A stretch of DNA of 36,701 nucleotides. Origin: Acidimicrobiales bacterium. GTDB taxonomy: Bacteria > Actinomycetota > Acidimicrobiia > Acidimicrobiales > Acidimicrobilacustridaceae. The notes under the pieces are model-generated. The model made no database searches and was not told the DNA's origin. It was given only the letters and a program-made list of their open reading frames with translations. A program made the translations under genes and the position numbers. Every line of letters starts with the position of its first letter. Position 1 is the stretch's first letter. Below, piece after piece: positions 1,347 to 7,828 of the stretch. The stretch is taken from the NCBI GenBank assembly GCA_026419545.1, contig JANZZE010000008.1:1-36701 (forward strand), given 5' to 3'.

Positions 1347-2441
1347 TCAGGGTAAAACCACAAGGTCATCGCGGTGGATGACGTAGCTGGGCACTCCGTC
1401 GGGTAGTTCGCCTCGTCGCTTCCCCGCGATTTCCTTCACCAGCTCCGCTGGCACGCGGGCAAGTCCCTTGGCGAAGACGGAGCCATCTGGGCCAGCGATC
1501 TCGACGGCGTCATCCTCGTCGAAATCTCCATGCACACCCACGATCCCAGCCGCAAGCAGCGATGCGCCGCCCCTCTCGAGCGCTGCACGGGCTCCAGCGT
1601 CGACTGCGATCGTGCCGGCAGACCCAACCGCAAACGCGATCCAGAGCTTGCGGGCGCCAAGTTTGCGGTCGTGAGGAAGCACGACCGTCCCCCCCCCGGA
1701 ACGATCCGCGACGGCATCCGCCAGAACGCGCTCCCGGGACGCTGACGCAATGACCGTCCGCACCCCTGACCATGCCGCAATTTTCGCGGCGGCCAGCTTG
1801 GACGCCATCCCGCCACTCCCCCGCTCGGTGCCAGCGCCACCGGCCACCCGTTCCAACGCGTGGTCGACCTCGACGATCTCTTCGATAAGCGAGGCCTCGC
1901 GGTCAAATCGCGGGTCGGCAGTGAGCACCCCAGCCGTGTCGGTTAGCAGCACCAGCAGGTCGGCGCCGACGAGGTGGGCTACGAGCGCAGCGATCCGGTC
2001 ATTGTCACCGAAACGGATCTCATCGTCGGCAACCGCATCGTTCTCATTCACGATCGGCACCACCCCGAGTTCGAGCAGTCGCTGAAGTGTGCCACGAGCA
2101 TGCAGGTACTGTTTCCGATCACGGAAATCGAGGGGGGCGAGGAGGACTTGCCCCGCTATCAGACCGTGGTCGGCGAAAGCCTCGTTGTAGACCTGCATGA
2201 GACGGCTCTGACCGACAGCCGCAACAGCTTGCAAGGTGACGGCATCGCGGGGCCGACGGCCGCCGGTAAGCCCGAGTGCCGGAAGCCCGGCACCGATGGC
2301 CCCGGAGGTGACGACGATGACCTGATGAGCGTCGGCTCGCACTGCAGCGACTTCAGCGCACAACTTGGCGATGGCGCTCCGTACGATCTCACCATCGTCA
2401 TCAGTTATGGATGACGTCCCGATCTTGGCGACGACGATCAT
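1347..2441 (-). CDS. proB: Glutamate 5-kinase
   Basis: The protein has 364 residues and catalyses the first step of proline synthesis, ATP-dependent phosphorylation of glutamate. The N-terminus reads MIVVAKIGTSSITD, the usual start of the amino-acid-kinase fold with its substrate-binding KxGTSS segment. Further motifs are VVTSGAIGAG, IVNENDAV and GxGGMASKLAAA (about residues 50-60, 140-150 and 210-225). Roughly the last 85 residues form the C-terminal PUA domain. The ATG at 2441 is chosen because homologous sequence begins there and it lies 16 nt after the obgE stop. Longer in-frame extensions upstream overlap obgE and show no similarity. The obgE-proB order is standard in Actinobacteria, but proA, which usually follows, is absent: the next gene, pspA, is convergent. 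Confidence 0.95.
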   Translation of the reverse strand: MIVVAKIGTSSITDDDGEIVRSAIAKLCAEVAAVRADAHQVIVVTSGAIGAGLPALGLTGGRRPRDAVTLQAVAAVGQSRLMQVYNEAFADHGLIAGQVLLAPLDFRDRKQYLHARGTLQRLLELGVVPIVNENDAVADDEIRFGDNDRIAALVAHLVGADLLVLLTDTAGVLTADPRFDREASLIEEIVEVDHALERVAGGAGTERGSGGMASKLAAAKIAAWSGVRTVIASASRERVLADAVADRSGGGTVVLPHDRKLGARKLWIAFAVGSAGTIAVDAGARAALERGGASLLAAGIVGVHGDFDEDDAVEIAGPDGSVFAKGLARVPAELVKEIAGKRRGELPDGVPSYVIHRDDLVVLP

Positions 2442-2457
2442 GTTTCCCGACCGCCCG

Positions 2458-3717
2458 TCACGCTTCCTCCTCGAAATCGAACGACAGGTCGCCGATATGG
2501 ACGGTGTCACCGTACTTCGCACCGGCCCGGATAAGCGCACGGTCCACGCCGAGTCGTCTGAGGCGCCGATGTGCGTATGCAAGGGCTTCGGGATTGGTGA
2601 GATCTGAAAGAGCCACGGCTCGTTCGGCTTCGCGACCGATAACCCGGAAGCTCCGGTCGTCCAAGCGTTCGACCCGGAAGCCCTCGGCCGCCGGCCGGTG
2701 CACGACGAACGCCTCGGCGGTGGGTTCTTCGGCTTTCGACGCCTCGACCGCAGTGGCCATCTGCCCGAGAAGGACCGGAATACCTTCTCCGGTCACCGCG
2801 GATATGCGCAACTCGGGATAGCTCAAGCCACTCCCACCCCGATACTCGGACGCGAGATCTGCCCGAGAACCCACCACGAGACGACGCCGTTCGAGTAGGG
2901 CTGGCTGATAGTTCGCCAGCTCGCTCAACAAGATGGATTCCTGGTCTCGCGGCGGCAGCGCACCTGTCCCATCAGCCAAGTCGAGCAGGAGCAGGAGCAC
3001 CCGAGCCCGCTCGATGTGCCGCAGGAACTGGTGCCCGAGCCCCTTGCCCTCACTCGCGCCCTCGATCAGACCGGGAATGTCCGCGACGATCATCTCGAAC
3101 CCGTCGTCGAGACGCACGACACCGAGGTTCGGCTCAAGAGTTGTGAACGGGTAGTCGGCGATCTTGGGCTTGGCGGCAGAGATCCGCGATATCAGCGTGC
3201 TCTTGCCCACATTCGGGAACCCAACGAGCGCGACGTCAGCCATGAGCTTGAGCTCGAGGTGCAGCCAGCGCTGCTCGCCGAGCTCACCCTGTTCGGCGAA
3301 TGCCGGAGCCCGACGCCGGTTCGAGAGAAAGCGGGCATTGCCTTTGCCGCCTCGCCCACCAGCTGCGGCGAGCCACCGATCGCCATGGCGTACGAGATCC
3401 GCGAGCAGCGTGCCCTCAAAGTCATAGACCGCAGTTCCCTCGGGCACGTGGACCTCGAGATCGGCGCCCGCTGCACCGTGCTTCCGCTGGCCCTGTCCGT
3501 GGCGGCCGTTTTCGGCGCGGCGATGGGGGTGGTCCTTGAACGCGAGCAGCGACGCCACGTTGCGATCAGCGACGAGCCACACGTCACCACCTTTCCCACC
3601 GTCGCCACCGTCGGGTCCGCCCCGGGGTACGTGCGCCTCGCGCCGGAACGAGATACATCCTGCGCCGCCGTCACCGCCACGCACATTGAGGTTGCACTCG
3701 TCGACGAACCCGCTCAC
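2458..3717 (-). CDS. obgE: GTPase Obg/CgtA
   Basis: The protein has 419 residues and is a ribosome-associated GTPase acting in 50S assembly and growth control. The glycine-rich Obg fold covers residues 1-158 (GGDGGAG, RGGPDGGDGGKGGDV, GGRGGKGN). The G domain holds G1 GFPNVGKS (166-173), G2 TT (192-193), G3 DIPG (213-216) and G5 SAVTGEG (from 306). The C-terminal OCT domain (about 335-412) contains FRVERLDDRSFRV and ends in an acidic tail. The G4 motif, normally NKxD, reads SRAD here. There is no ATG. The GTG at 3717 is preferred because a TANNNT box (TAAGCT) ends 7 nt upstream and conserved sequence (FVDE) begins at once. A TTG at 3723 would add two residues. The 5' end abuts the terminator hairpin of the upstream Tad genes. 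Confidence 0.95.
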   Translation of the reverse strand: MSGFVDECNLNVRGGDGGAGCISFRREAHVPRGGPDGGDGGKGGDVWLVADRNVASLLAFKDHPHRRAENGRHGQGQRKHGAAGADLEVHVPEGTAVYDFEGTLLADLVRHGDRWLAAAGGRGGKGNARFLSNRRRAPAFAEQGELGEQRWLHLELKLMADVALVGFPNVGKSTLISRISAAKPKIADYPFTTLEPNLGVVRLDDGFEMIVADIPGLIEGASEGKGLGHQFLRHIERARVLLLLLDLADGTGALPPRDQESILLSELANYQPALLERRRLVVGSRADLASEYRGGSGLSYPELRISAVTGEGIPVLLGQMATAVEASKAEEPTAEAFVVHRPAAEGFRVERLDDRSFRVIGREAERAVALSDLTNPEALAYAHRRLRRLGVDRALIRAGAKYGDTVHIGDLSFDFEEEA

Positions 3718-3721
3718 TCCC

Positions 3722-3757
3722 AAAAGCTTAGGGACGGCATCGCCGCCGTCCCTAAGC
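3722..3757 (-). terminator. Intrinsic terminator of the Tad gene cluster, abutting obgE
   Basis: Bases 3726-3738 and 3745-3757 form a perfect 13-bp inverted repeat with a 6-nt loop. On the minus strand the second arm is followed directly by TTTT (3722-3725). It lies 35 nt after the stop of the TadG-like gene, so it should end that transcript. The distal arm and the T run coincide with the -10-like TAAGCT box (3725-3730) and the possible TTG start (3723) of obgE. Confidence 0.75.
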
Positions 3758-3792
3758 CAGTCAAGGGTGCAATACCGAGGACACTGGGACGC

Positions 3793-5559
3793 TCAGGCCA
3801 CAAGGTGGACTGGGTCACCGATGATCTTCAACGACCAGGTGGTTCGGTCAGTCGCGGACGCACTGTAAGTGTACTCGACGCGGTACCATTGATTACAGGC
3901 AGGTGGATTCCAACTTGCAGGCAACGTCCAGTTGATCGTGATCAGATCATTGTTGAAATCATAGCCAGCAATATTGATCACCTGGACACCGGTACCCGAC
4001 GCTTCTATTCCACCGGTTCCGTTGCTGTTCACACGGAAATCAAACGTTTCGTCGACCCACGAATTACAACCATTCGGCCGCTTGATCCGGAGCGACTGAG
4101 CACCTTCAGCTGCGTCCCACAGTTGAACTTCAACTTGCTTACCGGCGTGCTGAGGTCCGACCTCGGCCAAGAAGAACTGCGCGGTCCCCGCTGAACGGGC
4201 GTAGACCGACATGAAATCCTTCGCATATACACGCGGACAGGTGCTATCCGTCCGGTAGTCGCACAAACCCGGATTTGTCGACCGGTTGGCCACAATGGAA
4301 TACGCGTTCGAGCCGTTGTTATTGCTTGCAGCGCCTCCGGGCGAACTTTGATTACGGACCCTGAGTATGTACTTTCCAGCCGGGGCGCTAGCAGGGATCG
4401 TGCAAAGCCGCCACCAGCCGAGCCTGCTCCGGAACTGCCCAGGTGCGGGGTTCCACGCTGTCCCAGCCGACGGGTAGTTGTGCTCGGCTGTTGTGTTTTG
4501 GTTCGGGGTCGTAATCGGATTAAACGTCTTCTGCCCCCCGGTGCCCGTGCCGAACCCGGACGTGCAACCATTGACAGCTGTCATTGGTGGGTTGTCGCTA
4601 TCGTCGAGAGGTGTCGAGTCAGCTTGGTACAGCGTGAACGTCGTAGGCATCACCGGCTGACTTGCAAGTCCGCCAAAACACATTTCGTTCGTCACGTTCA
4701 CTGGTTCAGCCGGCAGCGGACCACTACCGTCCGGATCCCAGGTCCCTGGCGTATTGCATTGCGTGCTACTGGTCCCTACATTCATCATGTTACCACTAAA
4801 GATTAGAACATCAGTGTCATAGGTCCGGTTCGTCGGCAATTCGACATAGTACTCATAGTTAATATCCGAATATTCAAGATTGTCCGCGCCCTGACAATTA
4901 TTGTTGGTATTATTGTTGGCTTTCAGCGCCGCTTTTCGATCACCCTGCTGCTTGTCTGTGCATCTACCGCTTATAGCCATCCATAGGTTTTCCATTTCAT
5001 ACGGTGTGTTCGCCGAACCAAGCCCGAAATCGCCAGTCCCGATGAAATTGCGAGGGCTCCCGAGTGGGACTGGAAGCACATACTCCGCGACCGAACGCCG
5101 TGTCAGGGTGGAAGCCGGGTAGAACAAGCTGCTGAAGTAGCGCTGTCGGGGAGCGGTGATCGTTGCCTGCACCCTGTTGCCGGAAATCCTGTCGATGGAC
5201 ACACTCACGCCACCGACACCGTGCTGGAAGCCGTTGCGCTGGGCCGTCTCGAGCCCGACGGTCTGGTAGAGCGTGGGATTGCTCGGATTGTCCGCCCACA
5301 CGACCGCTGCGAGAGCGGCTGCATCAGCAGCTCGCTGTTGCTCGACACCTTGCGCATACCACGACCCCACGTCAACCGCAAAGGACGTAAAGATGAGCAG
5401 TGGGACCAGGAGCAGTCCCGACAACACGACTGCATACCCACCGTCGCCAACAGGTCCGTGACCAATTGACGCAGGCGTGCTCCTATCGCCCGTCAGTCGA
5501 CGACCACGGGATGCTTCCCCTGATTTCATTCGCTCAGTTTGCGAGAACTCATACTTCAT
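3793..5559 (-). CDS. TadG-like pilus-assembly/secreted protein with Tad N-terminal helix
   Basis: The protein has 588 residues. After about 40 polar residues there is one membrane helix (43-62) followed by AVDVGSWYAQ and QQRAADAAALAA (61-85), the hallmark of the TadG-type N-terminal segment. Unlike the two upstream proteins, it has Leu rather than Glu at position +5 after the Gly (GYAVVL), so prepilin-type cleavage is not evident. Residues of about 160-588 are a long extracytoplasmic region rich in Asn, Thr, Ser and Gly with many cysteines and an Asn-rich stretch. Its repeated GKYILRVRNQ and GKQVEVQLWDA strings suggest beta-sandwich modules. I do not recognise a catalytic motif. The ATG at 5559 overlaps the preceding stop (ATGA) and is preceded by AAAGGTG. 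The base composition is visibly more AT-rich than its neighbours (for example 4790-4925), consistent with later acquisition. Confidence 0.7.
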   Translation of the reverse strand: MKYEFSQTERMKSGEASRGRRLTGDRSTPASIGHGPVGDGGYAVVLSGLLLVPLLIFTSFAVDVGSWYAQGVEQQRAADAAALAAVVWADNPSNPTLYQTVGLETAQRNGFQHGVGGVSVSIDRISGNRVQATITAPRQRYFSSLFYPASTLTRRSVAEYVLPVPLGSPRNFIGTGDFGLGSANTPYEMENLWMAISGRCTDKQQGDRKAALKANNNTNNNCQGADNLEYSDINYEYYVELPTNRTYDTDVLIFSGNMMNVGTSSTQCNTPGTWDPDGSGPLPAEPVNVTNEMCFGGLASQPVMPTTFTLYQADSTPLDDSDNPPMTAVNGCTSGFGTGTGGQKTFNPITTPNQNTTAEHNYPSAGTAWNPAPGQFRSRLGWWRLCTIPASAPAGKYILRVRNQSSPGGAASNNNGSNAYSIVANRSTNPGLCDYRTDSTCPRVYAKDFMSVYARSAGTAQFFLAEVGPQHAGKQVEVQLWDAAEGAQSLRIKRPNGCNSWVDETFDFRVNSNGTGGIEASGTGVQVINIAGYDFNNDLITINWTLPASWNPPACNQWYRVEYTYSASATDRTTWSLKIIGDPVHLVA

Positions 5560-6224
5560 GGCTGCGACACCTTTGGTTCGATTCGCATGACAGCGCGGTC
5601 GTTGAACGCCACAGACGATGACCAATAGAGCCTGGTGACCGGCGAGTAATTGACTCGCGCGTACACACCAACGTAATCCGGTGGATCAGATTGATTTGCC
5701 TTGCGAGAAGTTGGGCACCAAAAGCGATCCCAGGAGGACGCGCTACACGTGGTCCCGGTCAAGTTGTCAAAGTTAGCTGGTACCATGGTTTGAAGTTGCG
5801 TCAAGCCAAAAATGTTGCAGTGACCAGACAATCCCTGACCACTCGGCGTCGCATTTGTGGTTAGACATGCCGAGTTGGTCGGATCACCATTCAACGCCGT
5901 CGTGCGGTAAATCACTAGTCGATCAATCGTCACTCTCTTGGTCTTGGCCATCGAAGACCAGAACGATTGGAGGGCCAGGTAGTCCGCACCGCGCTGGTCC
6001 CCAAGATTGGTGGTCTGCCGAGCAGCGGCGCGCACGGCTGATTCAAGGTCGATTGTCTGCCGATATGCAAAGCCGAACTCGAAAACAATCAGCATAAACA
6101 CGACGATGATCGGAGCCACGAGGGCGAATTCGGGAATTACTGCACCTCGGTCCTCACGCAAGCACCTAGGCTCAGCGAAGCGGCCGTCTGGCTCAATCCT
6201 CAGATCTTCGGTGGCGCGAGTCAT
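5556..6224 (-). CDS. TadE-like pseudopilin (second copy)
   Basis: The protein has 222 residues. A 26-residue basic leader ends in RG, followed by AVIPEFALVAPIIVVFMLIVFEFG. Gly27 with Glu32-Phe33 fits the G/xxxxEF prepilin-peptidase site of Flp/TadE pseudopilins, and the hydrophobic helix runs to about residue 53. The C-terminal domain contains paired cysteines (CLTTN...GHCNIF) and a DRFWCPTSRK...PPDYVGVYAR block that is shared with the gene upstream, so the two are paralogues. The ATG at 6224 overlaps the upstream stop by one base (TGATG) and has GAGGAAG about 10 nt before it. A TTG at 6227 is a weaker alternative. TadE proteins are minor components of tight-adherence pili or of related export systems. 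No TadA/B/C or prepilin peptidase gene lies in this window, so the partner machinery must be elsewhere. Confidence 0.75.
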   Translation of the reverse strand: MTRATEDLRIEPDGRFAEPRCLREDRGAVIPEFALVAPIIVVFMLIVFEFGFAYRQTIDLESAVRAAARQTTNLGDQRGADYLALQSFWSSMAKTKRVTIDRLVIYRTTALNGDPTNSACLTTNATPSGQGLSGHCNIFGLTQLQTMVPANFDNLTGTTCSASSWDRFWCPTSRKANQSDPPDYVGVYARVNYSPVTRLYWSSSVAFNDRAVMRIEPKVSQP

Positions 6225-6850
6225 CAAACCAACTTCCTCGGTTCGAGTTTGGTCACTGTCTGGTCCTCAAGGATCATTGACGACCCGAACATCGAGCTCA
6301 CTGAAATGTGGTTGTAGCGAACATATACGCCAATCCAGTCGGGAGGACCGTTTCCGTTGTTGTTGAACACAGCGTTCTTCCGAGTCGTCGGGCACCAGAA
6401 GCGATCTTTCGATACGCCGACTATGCAAGTAAAAGCCGTCGAAGTCTGGGGGAGCGTCAAATCAGATGCCGCATAGACGTTGCACGTACCTGAAACGGCG
6501 ACGGTCTTGCACGTCAACGGAATAGTAGAGGTGGCAGAGCTAGCTTTGAATATCGCGATGTGCTGAATGTTGGCTCGTTGAAGTCCGGTGCCGCCCTTGC
6601 CTAGTTCTTGGAGGATTTGCCAATCAGCGAGTGGATCCGATCCCGCGATCGCAGCCGACCGGGCTCCGCCGGCGGTCATATTGCCCAGCGTCAGCCAGTC
6701 ACGGAACAACAGACCACCTTCCATGATGGCTATGAGGATGAACATCAACACTGGTGTCACAAGCCCGGCTTCGACTAGGGCAACACCACGATCTCCCGTT
6801 CCGCGGTCAACGGCGGACAGCTCATCACCTGCCGGACGGTTCAGCAACAC
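6224..6850 (-). CDS. TadE-like pseudopilin (first copy)
   Basis: The protein has 208 residues from the GTG at 6850, which is chosen because AAGGAG lies 7 nt upstream. A GTG at 6856 would have almost no spacing. The leader ends in DRG, then VALVEAGLVTPVLMFILIAIMEGG: Gly22 with Glu27 forms a prepilin-type cleavage site at the start of the only membrane helix. The C-terminal domain carries cysteines (LTCKTV...GTCNVY) and the block DRFWCPTTRK...PPDWIGVYVR, which is nearly matched in the next gene. This is the first gene of a three-gene translationally coupled set (stop/start overlaps of 1 and 4 nt), so the three products are expected to work together at the cell surface. The start of the cluster follows 375 bp of non-coding DNA. 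Confidence 0.73.
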   Translation of the reverse strand: MLLNRPAGDELSAVDRGTGDRGVALVEAGLVTPVLMFILIAIMEGGLLFRDWLTLGNMTAGGARSAAIAGSDPLADWQILQELGKGGTGLQRANIQHIAIFKASSATSTIPLTCKTVAVSGTCNVYAASDLTLPQTSTAFTCIVGVSKDRFWCPTTRKNAVFNNNGNGPPDWIGVYVRYNHISVSSMFGSSMILEDQTVTKLEPRKLV

Positions 6851-7225
6851 GGCCACTCTCCTTGATGCCTGGCACCGCGGCGTTGGTCGCCCTCAACAAG
6901 TTCAATGCTTGGCCAAAAGGGCTGCCTCTGGAGCCCGCCAAATACGCCAACATCTGGTGCTTTTACCATGCTCGGGGCTCGCGCGGTAGCGTCACGAATA
7001 GCTTCCCAAGCGCTTGGCCGTATAAGGCGAACGCTGACGGGACACAAGATATCCCCCTGCTCTATCCGAATGCTGGTTGTGGTGTCTCTAGGGTGCAGCA
7101 CGCAAAGCGATTGAGTCACGCGAGGACTATCACGCTGCACTACCGTATCGGTAGATTACATCACACAACTTGAGCGAAAATGTGCCGATCGGCCCATATG
7201 CTGGGCCGTCATCTGATTCGCAGTT
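6851..7225. other. 375-bp intergenic region between rpmA and the Tad genes
   Basis: I see no convincing gene here on either strand. Open frames exist (for example + 6865-7173) but lack a ribosome site and recognisable motifs. The region holds a terminator candidate for rpmA (7177-7208), a CTACCG-tat-CGGTAG inverted repeat at 7140-7154 whose minus-strand reading contains a TANNNT box (TACGGT), and the Shine-Dalgarno site of the first Tad gene near 6858-6863. It is the probable promoter region of the Tad cluster and one border of its insertion. Confidence 0.5.
7177..7208 (-). terminator. Terminator candidate after rpmA
   Basis: The 7-bp arms CGGCCCA/TGGGCCG (7190-7196 and 7202-7208) with a 5-nt loop lie 17 nt past the rpmA stop. 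On the minus strand a TTTT run (7177-7180) follows after about 9 nt, so the U-tract is not immediate and the call is tentative. Confidence 0.4.
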
Positions 7226-7477
7226 TCAGCTCGGTAGAACGTCAACGACCTTGCGATTGCGGCGTTCACCAAACTTCACCTTGCCCTCTACCAGGGCAAA
7301 CAGGGTGTCGTCGCCGCCCCGGCCCACGTTCTCGCCGGGGTGAATGCGGGTACCGCGCTGGCGAACGATGATGGTTCCCGGCAGGACGACCTGGCCGTCG
7401 AAACGCTTGACCCCAAGGCGCTTGCTCTGGGAGTCACGCCCATTCCGGGTGGATCCACCGCCTTTGGTCTTCGACAT
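7226..7477 (-). CDS. rpmA: 50S ribosomal protein L27 (bL27)
   Basis: The protein has 83 residues, the normal length. It begins [16 protein letters not shown] and contains [11 protein letters not shown], the IIVRQRGTR block and DDTLFAL, all invariant or near-invariant in bL27. Its N-terminal tail reaches the peptidyl-transferase centre of the ribosome. There is no Firmicutes-type cleavable N-terminal extension. The gene starts only 3 nt after the rplU stop, so the two are co-transcribed. In most actinobacteria obgE follows directly. Here the Tad genes intervene. Confidence 0.98.
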
Positions 7478-7480
7478 CGC

Positions 7481-7789
7481 TCAGCCCTTCTCGATGCTCG
7501 TGATCTCGATGGTGTCGTACTTCTGCCGGTGGCCCCAGCGACGCCGGTTATTGGTCTTCGGCTTGTAGCTGAATCCGACGATCTTGGGACCGGTAGTCGC
7601 ACCAACGACTCGTGCTGACACCGATGCATTTGCAAGCTCGGCGGGTGTAGCCAACACCGAATCACCGTCCACAATGAGCACCGGCTTCAGCCGCACCTCA
7701 CCAACACCGTCGCCAAGCCGCTCGACGGCAAGCTGCTGGCCTTCCGTCACGCGGTACTGCTTGCCGCCGGTTTTGATCACCGCATACAT
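7481..7789 (-). CDS. rplU: 50S ribosomal protein L21 (bL21)
   Basis: The protein has 102 residues, the family length. It begins MYAVIKTGGKQYRV and ends with the RNA-binding YKPKTNNRRRWGHRQKYDTIEITSIE segment, both diagnostic for bL21, which binds 23S rRNA. The ATG at 7789 is preferred over an upstream in-frame start at 7828 because homologous sequence begins at MYAVIK. No Shine-Dalgarno sequence precedes it, but a TACCGT -10-like box ends 9 nt upstream, so the mRNA may be leaderless or nearly so. Two promoter-like repeat units lie further upstream (7850-7939). Confidence 0.98.
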   Translation of the reverse strand: MYAVIKTGGKQYRVTEGQQLAVERLGDGVGEVRLKPVLIVDGDSVLATPAELANASVSARVVGATTGPKIVGFSYKPKTNNRRRWGHRQKYDTIEITSIEKG

Positions 7790-7798
7790 AGGCGCAAA

Positions 7799-7828
7799 AC
7801 GGTACCCGAGGAGCGCGATTGACCACAA
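7799..7828 (-). promoter_or_regulatory. Proximal promoter candidate of rplU-rpmA
   Basis: On the minus strand TTGTGG (7823-7828) and TACCGT (7799-7804) are separated by 18 nt, and the second ends 9 nt before the rplU ATG. This fits a sigma-70-like actinobacterial promoter that gives an mRNA with little or no leader. Confidence 0.5.

Follow-up and report, generated by a model that had tools for sequence, protein, structure and literature searches.

The window analysed here is a stretch of 36,701 nucleotides, contig C322 (JANZZE010000008.1) of an Acidimicrobiales genome of 3.07 Mb that is assembled in 344 contigs and is 90.9% complete. Between its rpmA and obgE genes lies a trio of minor-pilin genes, two of them TadE-like and one TadG-like (Table 1). 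The ObgE protein of the window is closest, among named records, to those of Microthrixaceae, Aquihabitans and other Acidimicrobiia metagenome-assembled genomes (MAGs), which puts the genome in Acidimicrobiales or near it.

Table 1. Features of the window at and around the minor-pilin trio.
Feature	Position	Strand	Evidence or remark
rplU (L21)	7481..7828	-	PF00829
rpmA (L27), upstream border of the trio	7226..7477	-	PF01016
Intergenic stretch between rpmA and tadE-A	6857..7225	-	Position of a reversed dgt gene in relatives
tadE-A, first TadE-like minor pilin	6224..6856	-	PF07811; class III cleavage site G/VALVE (cut at the slash)
tadE-B, second TadE-like minor pilin	5556..6224	-	PF07811; class III cleavage site G/AVIPE (cut at the slash)
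tadG-like large minor pilin, 588 aa	3793..5559	-	PF13400; alignment; structure model
15-pair hairpin abutting the obgE start	3725..3758	-	Terminator or leader hairpin
obgE, downstream border of the trio	2458..3723	-	PF01018; start TTG 3723 or GTG 3717
proB	1347-2582		Neighbour gene in the window

Both TadE-like genes score above the gathering cut-off of 22.9 bits for PF07811 (TadE), tadE-A with 35.7 bits (ORF 6224-6856) and tadE-B with 40.9 bits (ORF scored as 5556-6227). The third gene reaches 35.2 bits against PF13400 (Tad), for which the cut-off is 22.3 (ORF scored as 3793-5625), and has the N-terminal helix (38-86 in the model) and long C-terminal part of a TadG-like protein. The stop codon of tadE-A overlaps the ATG of tadE-B in the sequence TGATG (6226-6222), and that of tadE-B overlaps the ATG of tadG in ATGA (5559-5556). 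Because stop and start overlap at both junctions, the three genes are coupled, as a first-pass annotation of the same DNA had proposed. It had also given the trio a transcription unit of its own, which fits the coupling and the 369-bp gap that follows rpmA. This gap is probably the promoter region of the trio.

The two TadE proteins carry the class III prepilin processing site, a glycine at the cleavage point and a glutamate five residues later, ahead of a hydrophobic helix. The same motif and hydrophobic stretch occur in all 51 TadE proteins examined from rpmA-obgE intervals, the window's two included. A model of the TadG-like protein, built from six sequences (mean pLDDT 56), has a long pilin-like helix at its N-terminus and a beta-rich C-terminal part; the C-terminal end is common to the six aligned proteins. 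When the model was compared with the PDB using Foldseek, 626 matches had E <= 10 and none had E <= 0.001. The best VIA-align score, Z 8.4 to beta-sandwich chains, is near the level reached by models with no clear match. Since the model is of low confidence and has no firm structural relative, no binding function is claimed from it.

The borders of the trio had been described as a terminator candidate after rpmA and a strong terminator before obgE. In both places the hairpin exists and its role as a terminator is less certain. The one after rpmA lacks an immediate T-run. The 15-pair hairpin before obgE is a doubtful terminator because the short run of Ts behind it shares bases with the earliest candidate start codon of obgE, which leaves almost no room for an obgE promoter downstream, and because a terminator scan did not include it among its predictions. 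Its stem of 15 pairs in the window shortens to 11 in Aquihabitans, to 9 in G041 and to 5-8 in the other 24 trio-bearing loci. Stems this short in most relatives rule the hairpin out as a conserved element of the cassette.

Comparison of gene order in relatives, which the first-pass annotation had suggested, places the trio at the same site in most of the family. The family sample comprises 37 genomes, 21 of them from one genus (g2) and 16 from outside it. TadE matches adjoin rpmA or obgE in 15 of these 16; the sole exception, G023, has dgt after rpmA and no trio within the 5.3 kb examined. In contrast, the rpmA and obgE contigs of the 21 g2 genomes are all free of TadE matches. About 1.2-1.5 kb separates rpmA from obgE in the 15 g2 genomes that carry both genes on one contig, and in the three examined (G010, G014 and G015) this interval holds a reversed dgt. 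The window and g2 are thus opposites, one with the trio and no dgt, the other with dgt and no trio. The name dgt is used here for a gene whose HD (PF01966) and HD_assoc (PF13286) domains suggest a dGTPase-like product. A remnant of dgt between rpmA and tadE-A in the window was considered and rejected: the dgt proteins of 52 loci and the profile itself gave only chance-level matches there, and no HD_assoc domain was found in the window's genome.

Profile searches of named and unnamed loci yielded 147 with both rpmA and obgE. Removal of Coriobacteriia, one record titled Acidobacteria and repeats with identical ObgE leaves 118 distinct Acidimicrobiia intervals. Fifteen of these hold the trio only, 11 the trio and dgt, 43 dgt only and 8 other cargo, while 41 are empty. 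The trio is therefore present in 26 of 118, which include several families of the order. That it interrupts a pair of genes otherwise found side by side, as first proposed, is borne out by the adjacency of rpmA and obgE in these 41 intervals and in 23 of 24 Coriobacteriia loci that contain the pair. Where both cargoes occur, the order rpmA - dgt (reversed) - tadE - tadE - tadG - obgE is seen in 9 of 11 intervals; the exceptions are G080, with one tadE, and G054, with extra sets.

Several other arrangements were encountered in these searches. One Acidimicrobiales locus (MAG-119; L084 1679-4468) has, besides the trio between rpmA and obgE, a second tadE-tadE-tadG trio on the upstream side of rpmA, probably directly ahead of rplU. 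In Microthrix (L060 918-7876; L153; L235) the interval measures 7.3 kb and contains two Tad minor-pilin sets, and that of L060 also encodes a protein with four HTH_3 repeats. Other rpmA-obgE cargo (L065, L093, L099, L176, L237) includes a UvrD-like helicase, an MMPL transporter, a molybdopterin oxidoreductase and a solute-binding protein. Five MAG records titled Bifidobacterium breve (L057, L080, L087, L088, L090) have ObgE proteins that group with Acidimicrobiia, and their titles look wrong.

The window's contig has no T2SSE match, so the trio is not part of a complete Tad locus in which the machine is linked to its minor pilins. A search for tadA, tadB, tadC and a prepilin peptidase elsewhere, another suggestion of the first-pass annotation, found TadA-bearing loci on three contigs of the same genome (C38, C155 and C299) and a single A24 prepilin peptidase. 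C155 encodes RcpC, a TadZ-type ParA, TadA, a TadB with a VWA domain and TadC; domain searches of the genome found no TadE or TadG on this contig. The C38 locus has TadZ-like, TadA, TadB and TadC proteins and one TadE in a single run. C299 carries an SAF protein, TadA and a TadB/C-like protein, with no TadE visible on its 11.5 kb. The genome has three PF07811 matches, two in the trio and one in the C38 locus. Because the C155 machine has no TadE and C38 has its own, the trio is, by elimination, the most likely source of minor pilins for C155. A major Flp pilin for C155 was not found in this genome, which is about 91% complete. Profile searches around C155-type tadA genes in five relatives likewise found no TadE or TadG.

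Two further observations concern machine proteins and stray matches. In the C155 TadB (L193 3708-5639) the VWA-type domain precedes the T2SSF domain, and full-length relatives of this protein exist in several trio-bearing genera. A weak PF13400 match (G000:C92:184-321; 24.2 bits) lies near a contig end, where the other ORFs look like gyrase subunits.

The distribution of the C155-type machine supports such a partnership in raw counts. Its TadA (at least 59% identity) is present in 15 of 16 family genomes outside g2, although the reading is broken in G030. In g2 no genome (0/21) matches it across the greater part of the protein; G002 contributes a single 84-residue piece at a contig edge (63% identity). 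The correspondence is imperfect within the family, where G023 has the machine with no trio within 5.3 kb of rpmA and G027 has the trio with no close TadA. Of 78 genomes with a scored interval, 24 have the trio there, and 19 of these show a TadA match at E <= 1e-240; among the 54 that lack it, 4 do so (G048, G192, G204 and G179). The five trio-bearing genomes with weaker TadA matches are G201, G030, G032, G031 and G025. At E <= 1e-140 the figures are 24 of 24 and 22 of 54. With the strictest cut-off, about 4.4 of 5 independent pairs are concordant for trio and TadA (p 0.0625); looser cut-offs give fewer, and the median p never falls below 0.0625 at any TadA cut-off. Co-occurrence thus suggests that trio and machine belong together, and is non-significant on independent pairs.

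The age of the cassette can be judged from trees. A tadE tree was made from 40 interval-borne TadE proteins of 21 of the 27 trio-bearing loci, using first and second genes only and dropping rows of 140 residues or fewer. One branch, with support 87/92, parts all 19 first-position genes from all 21 second-position genes, and a single change between the two positions suffices in 86% of 200 bootstrap trees. A split of tadE-A from tadE-B by one branch across families points to one old, ordered cassette. The trio appears to have entered the rpmA-obgE interval through a past event that is old relative to the family. On an ObgE tree (122 rows, quick method), the states of the interval require 27 changes, compared to a mean of 59.8 after shuffling, and none of 200 shuffles was as low. 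Presence of the trio accounts for 12 changes, so transfers at the same site are possible. This tree is blind to the difference between gain and loss, and both repeated loss and some exchange may have occurred.

The first-pass annotation had read the trio as a self-contained island dropped into the rplU-rpmA-obgE operon. Base composition favours this. Trio genes have GC of 0.553-0.565 and GC3 of 0.61-0.63, compared with 0.634 (sd 0.027) and 0.728 (sd 0.054) for 77 predicted ORFs of the genome's own contigs, which upholds the lower GC noted earlier, about 56% against 63% around. Among 27 bearers, the window shows the widest GC difference between trio and obgE (-0.097), and its GC3 difference (-0.108) ranks second. 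In addition, its genus is represented in the family sample by this genome alone. However, 24 of the 27 bearers have a trio poorer in GC than their obgE (GC3 is lower in 14 only), which makes low GC partly a property of the trio proteins; the window's low GC is partly stronger than in other bearers, beyond this protein-linked share. Recent acquisition is opposed also by the occurrence of these genes, in this order and at this position, in 15 of 16 family genomes outside g2 and in other families of the order, and by the tadE tree, in which tadE-A groups with G025 and then G022, and tadE-B with G022, all of the same family. The trio does form a unit between rpmA and obgE; its recent horizontal acquisition in the window's lineage is rejected on gene order and trees and is very improbable. 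The opposite expectation, of an ancestral arrangement found class-wide with normal codon usage, is half right: the trio does not occur in the whole class, and GC3 is low in the window.

The interval might instead be an exchange site, at which rpmA-obgE blocks with varying cargo move among Acidimicrobiales by homologous recombination through the flanking genes. The variety of cargo, further genes such as those for UvrD-like and MMPL proteins, molybdopterin oxidoreductase and solute-binding protein included, and the 27 state changes on the ObgE tree speak for this. Nevertheless, it is unlikely, because cargo is strongly clustered on that tree, the dgt-trio order is nearly constant, and one old insertion followed by later losses accounts for much of the pattern. 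Also unlikely is a role of the trio in the C299 or C38 machine, or its survival as a remnant that has no machine to serve. The genome does have three TadA-bearing loci, and C299 has no visible TadE. But C38 has its own TadE, and machines like that of C299 (TadA about 31-36% identity) are found in g2, where the trio is missing. The intact reading frames and the conservation of motifs speak against a remnant.

Three coupled genes in a conserved order, a shared processing motif, a place kept among relatives and a separate machine that lacks TadE lead us to favour, with a probability of about 0.7, a tip cassette of minor pilins that is old, has passed down mainly by vertical descent and equips a Tad (type IVc) pilus powered by the C155 machine. 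In part of the Acidimicrobiales this cassette would sit between rpmA and obgE, often accompanied by the dGTPase-like gene in reverse orientation. Both TadE proteins and TadG would probably be cleaved by the A24 prepilin peptidase encoded elsewhere, and the mature proteins would pack through their N-terminal helices. The trio may then start and cap a pilus driven by the unlinked RcpC-TadZ-TadA-TadB-TadC machine. The beta-rich C-terminal part of TadG could form an exposed binding end, with adhesion as the outcome.

Similar parts are known from other bacteria. The Kil tips of Myxococcus xanthus are predicted trimers of KilL, KilM and KilN, homologues of TadE, TadF and TadG, and three of the four tip sets are encoded in their own tip-gene clusters apart from the machine, according to the accessible portion of PMC12075869. 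As described there, these tips also combine small minor pilins with one large minor pilin that has a distal domain. Unlike the Kil tips, which belong to a diderm predator, the window's set is actinobacterial, lies between rpmA and obgE, and is a predicted tip. A second parallel is the Flp competence pilus of another actinobacterium, Micrococcus luteus, for which the available sections of PMC4322843 describe TadE/F-type minor pilins, a TadG-like distal gene and a peptidase encoded elsewhere. The tad-1 and tad-2 loci are both needed for one pilus, and these split loci complement each other much as the trio and C155 might. In M. luteus, however, tadE/F-tadG follow tadABC in the same cluster, as far as those sections show, whereas the window's trio stands alone. 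In monoderms, TadE is a minor pilin and TadG a Tad-specific component, as stated in the accessible part of a review (PMC6916266). The trio matches all three part lists, and differs in its place and its distance from machine genes. Within the same genome, the compact C38 locus is comparable through its run of TadZ-like, TadA, TadB, TadC and TadE; it differs in that its TadE is single and its own, and no TadG-like gene was seen on the contig.

Searches of the open-access literature found no paper that joins Acidimicrobiia with Tad pili and none that has rpmA, obgE and TadE together. Papers returned for Acidimicrobiales with TadE, or for Microthrix parvicella with pili, looked unrelated in their accessible portions. 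The trio would be an ordinary but informative example of a pilus-tip cassette encoded away from its machine, and resembles the Kil tips of Myxococcus in this. It corrects an easily made error, in which low GC and an interrupted operon are taken for a recent island. It also provides a testable pairing of an orphan minor-pilin trio with a Tad machine encoded on another contig, in an order of actinobacteria that has received little study.

If this pairing is true, Tad tip cassettes that reside apart from their machine would not be peculiar to predatory myxobacteria. More tentatively, the rpmA-obgE interval may be an ancient docking place, where a Tad tip cassette is kept, duplicated, expanded or dropped independently of a separate RcpC-type machine. 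Were this possibility correct, pilus specificity would evolve among housekeeping genes, at a distance from the pilus genes. The interval could also serve as a simple marker by which to follow how uncultured Acidimicrobiia acquire and lose pilus tips.
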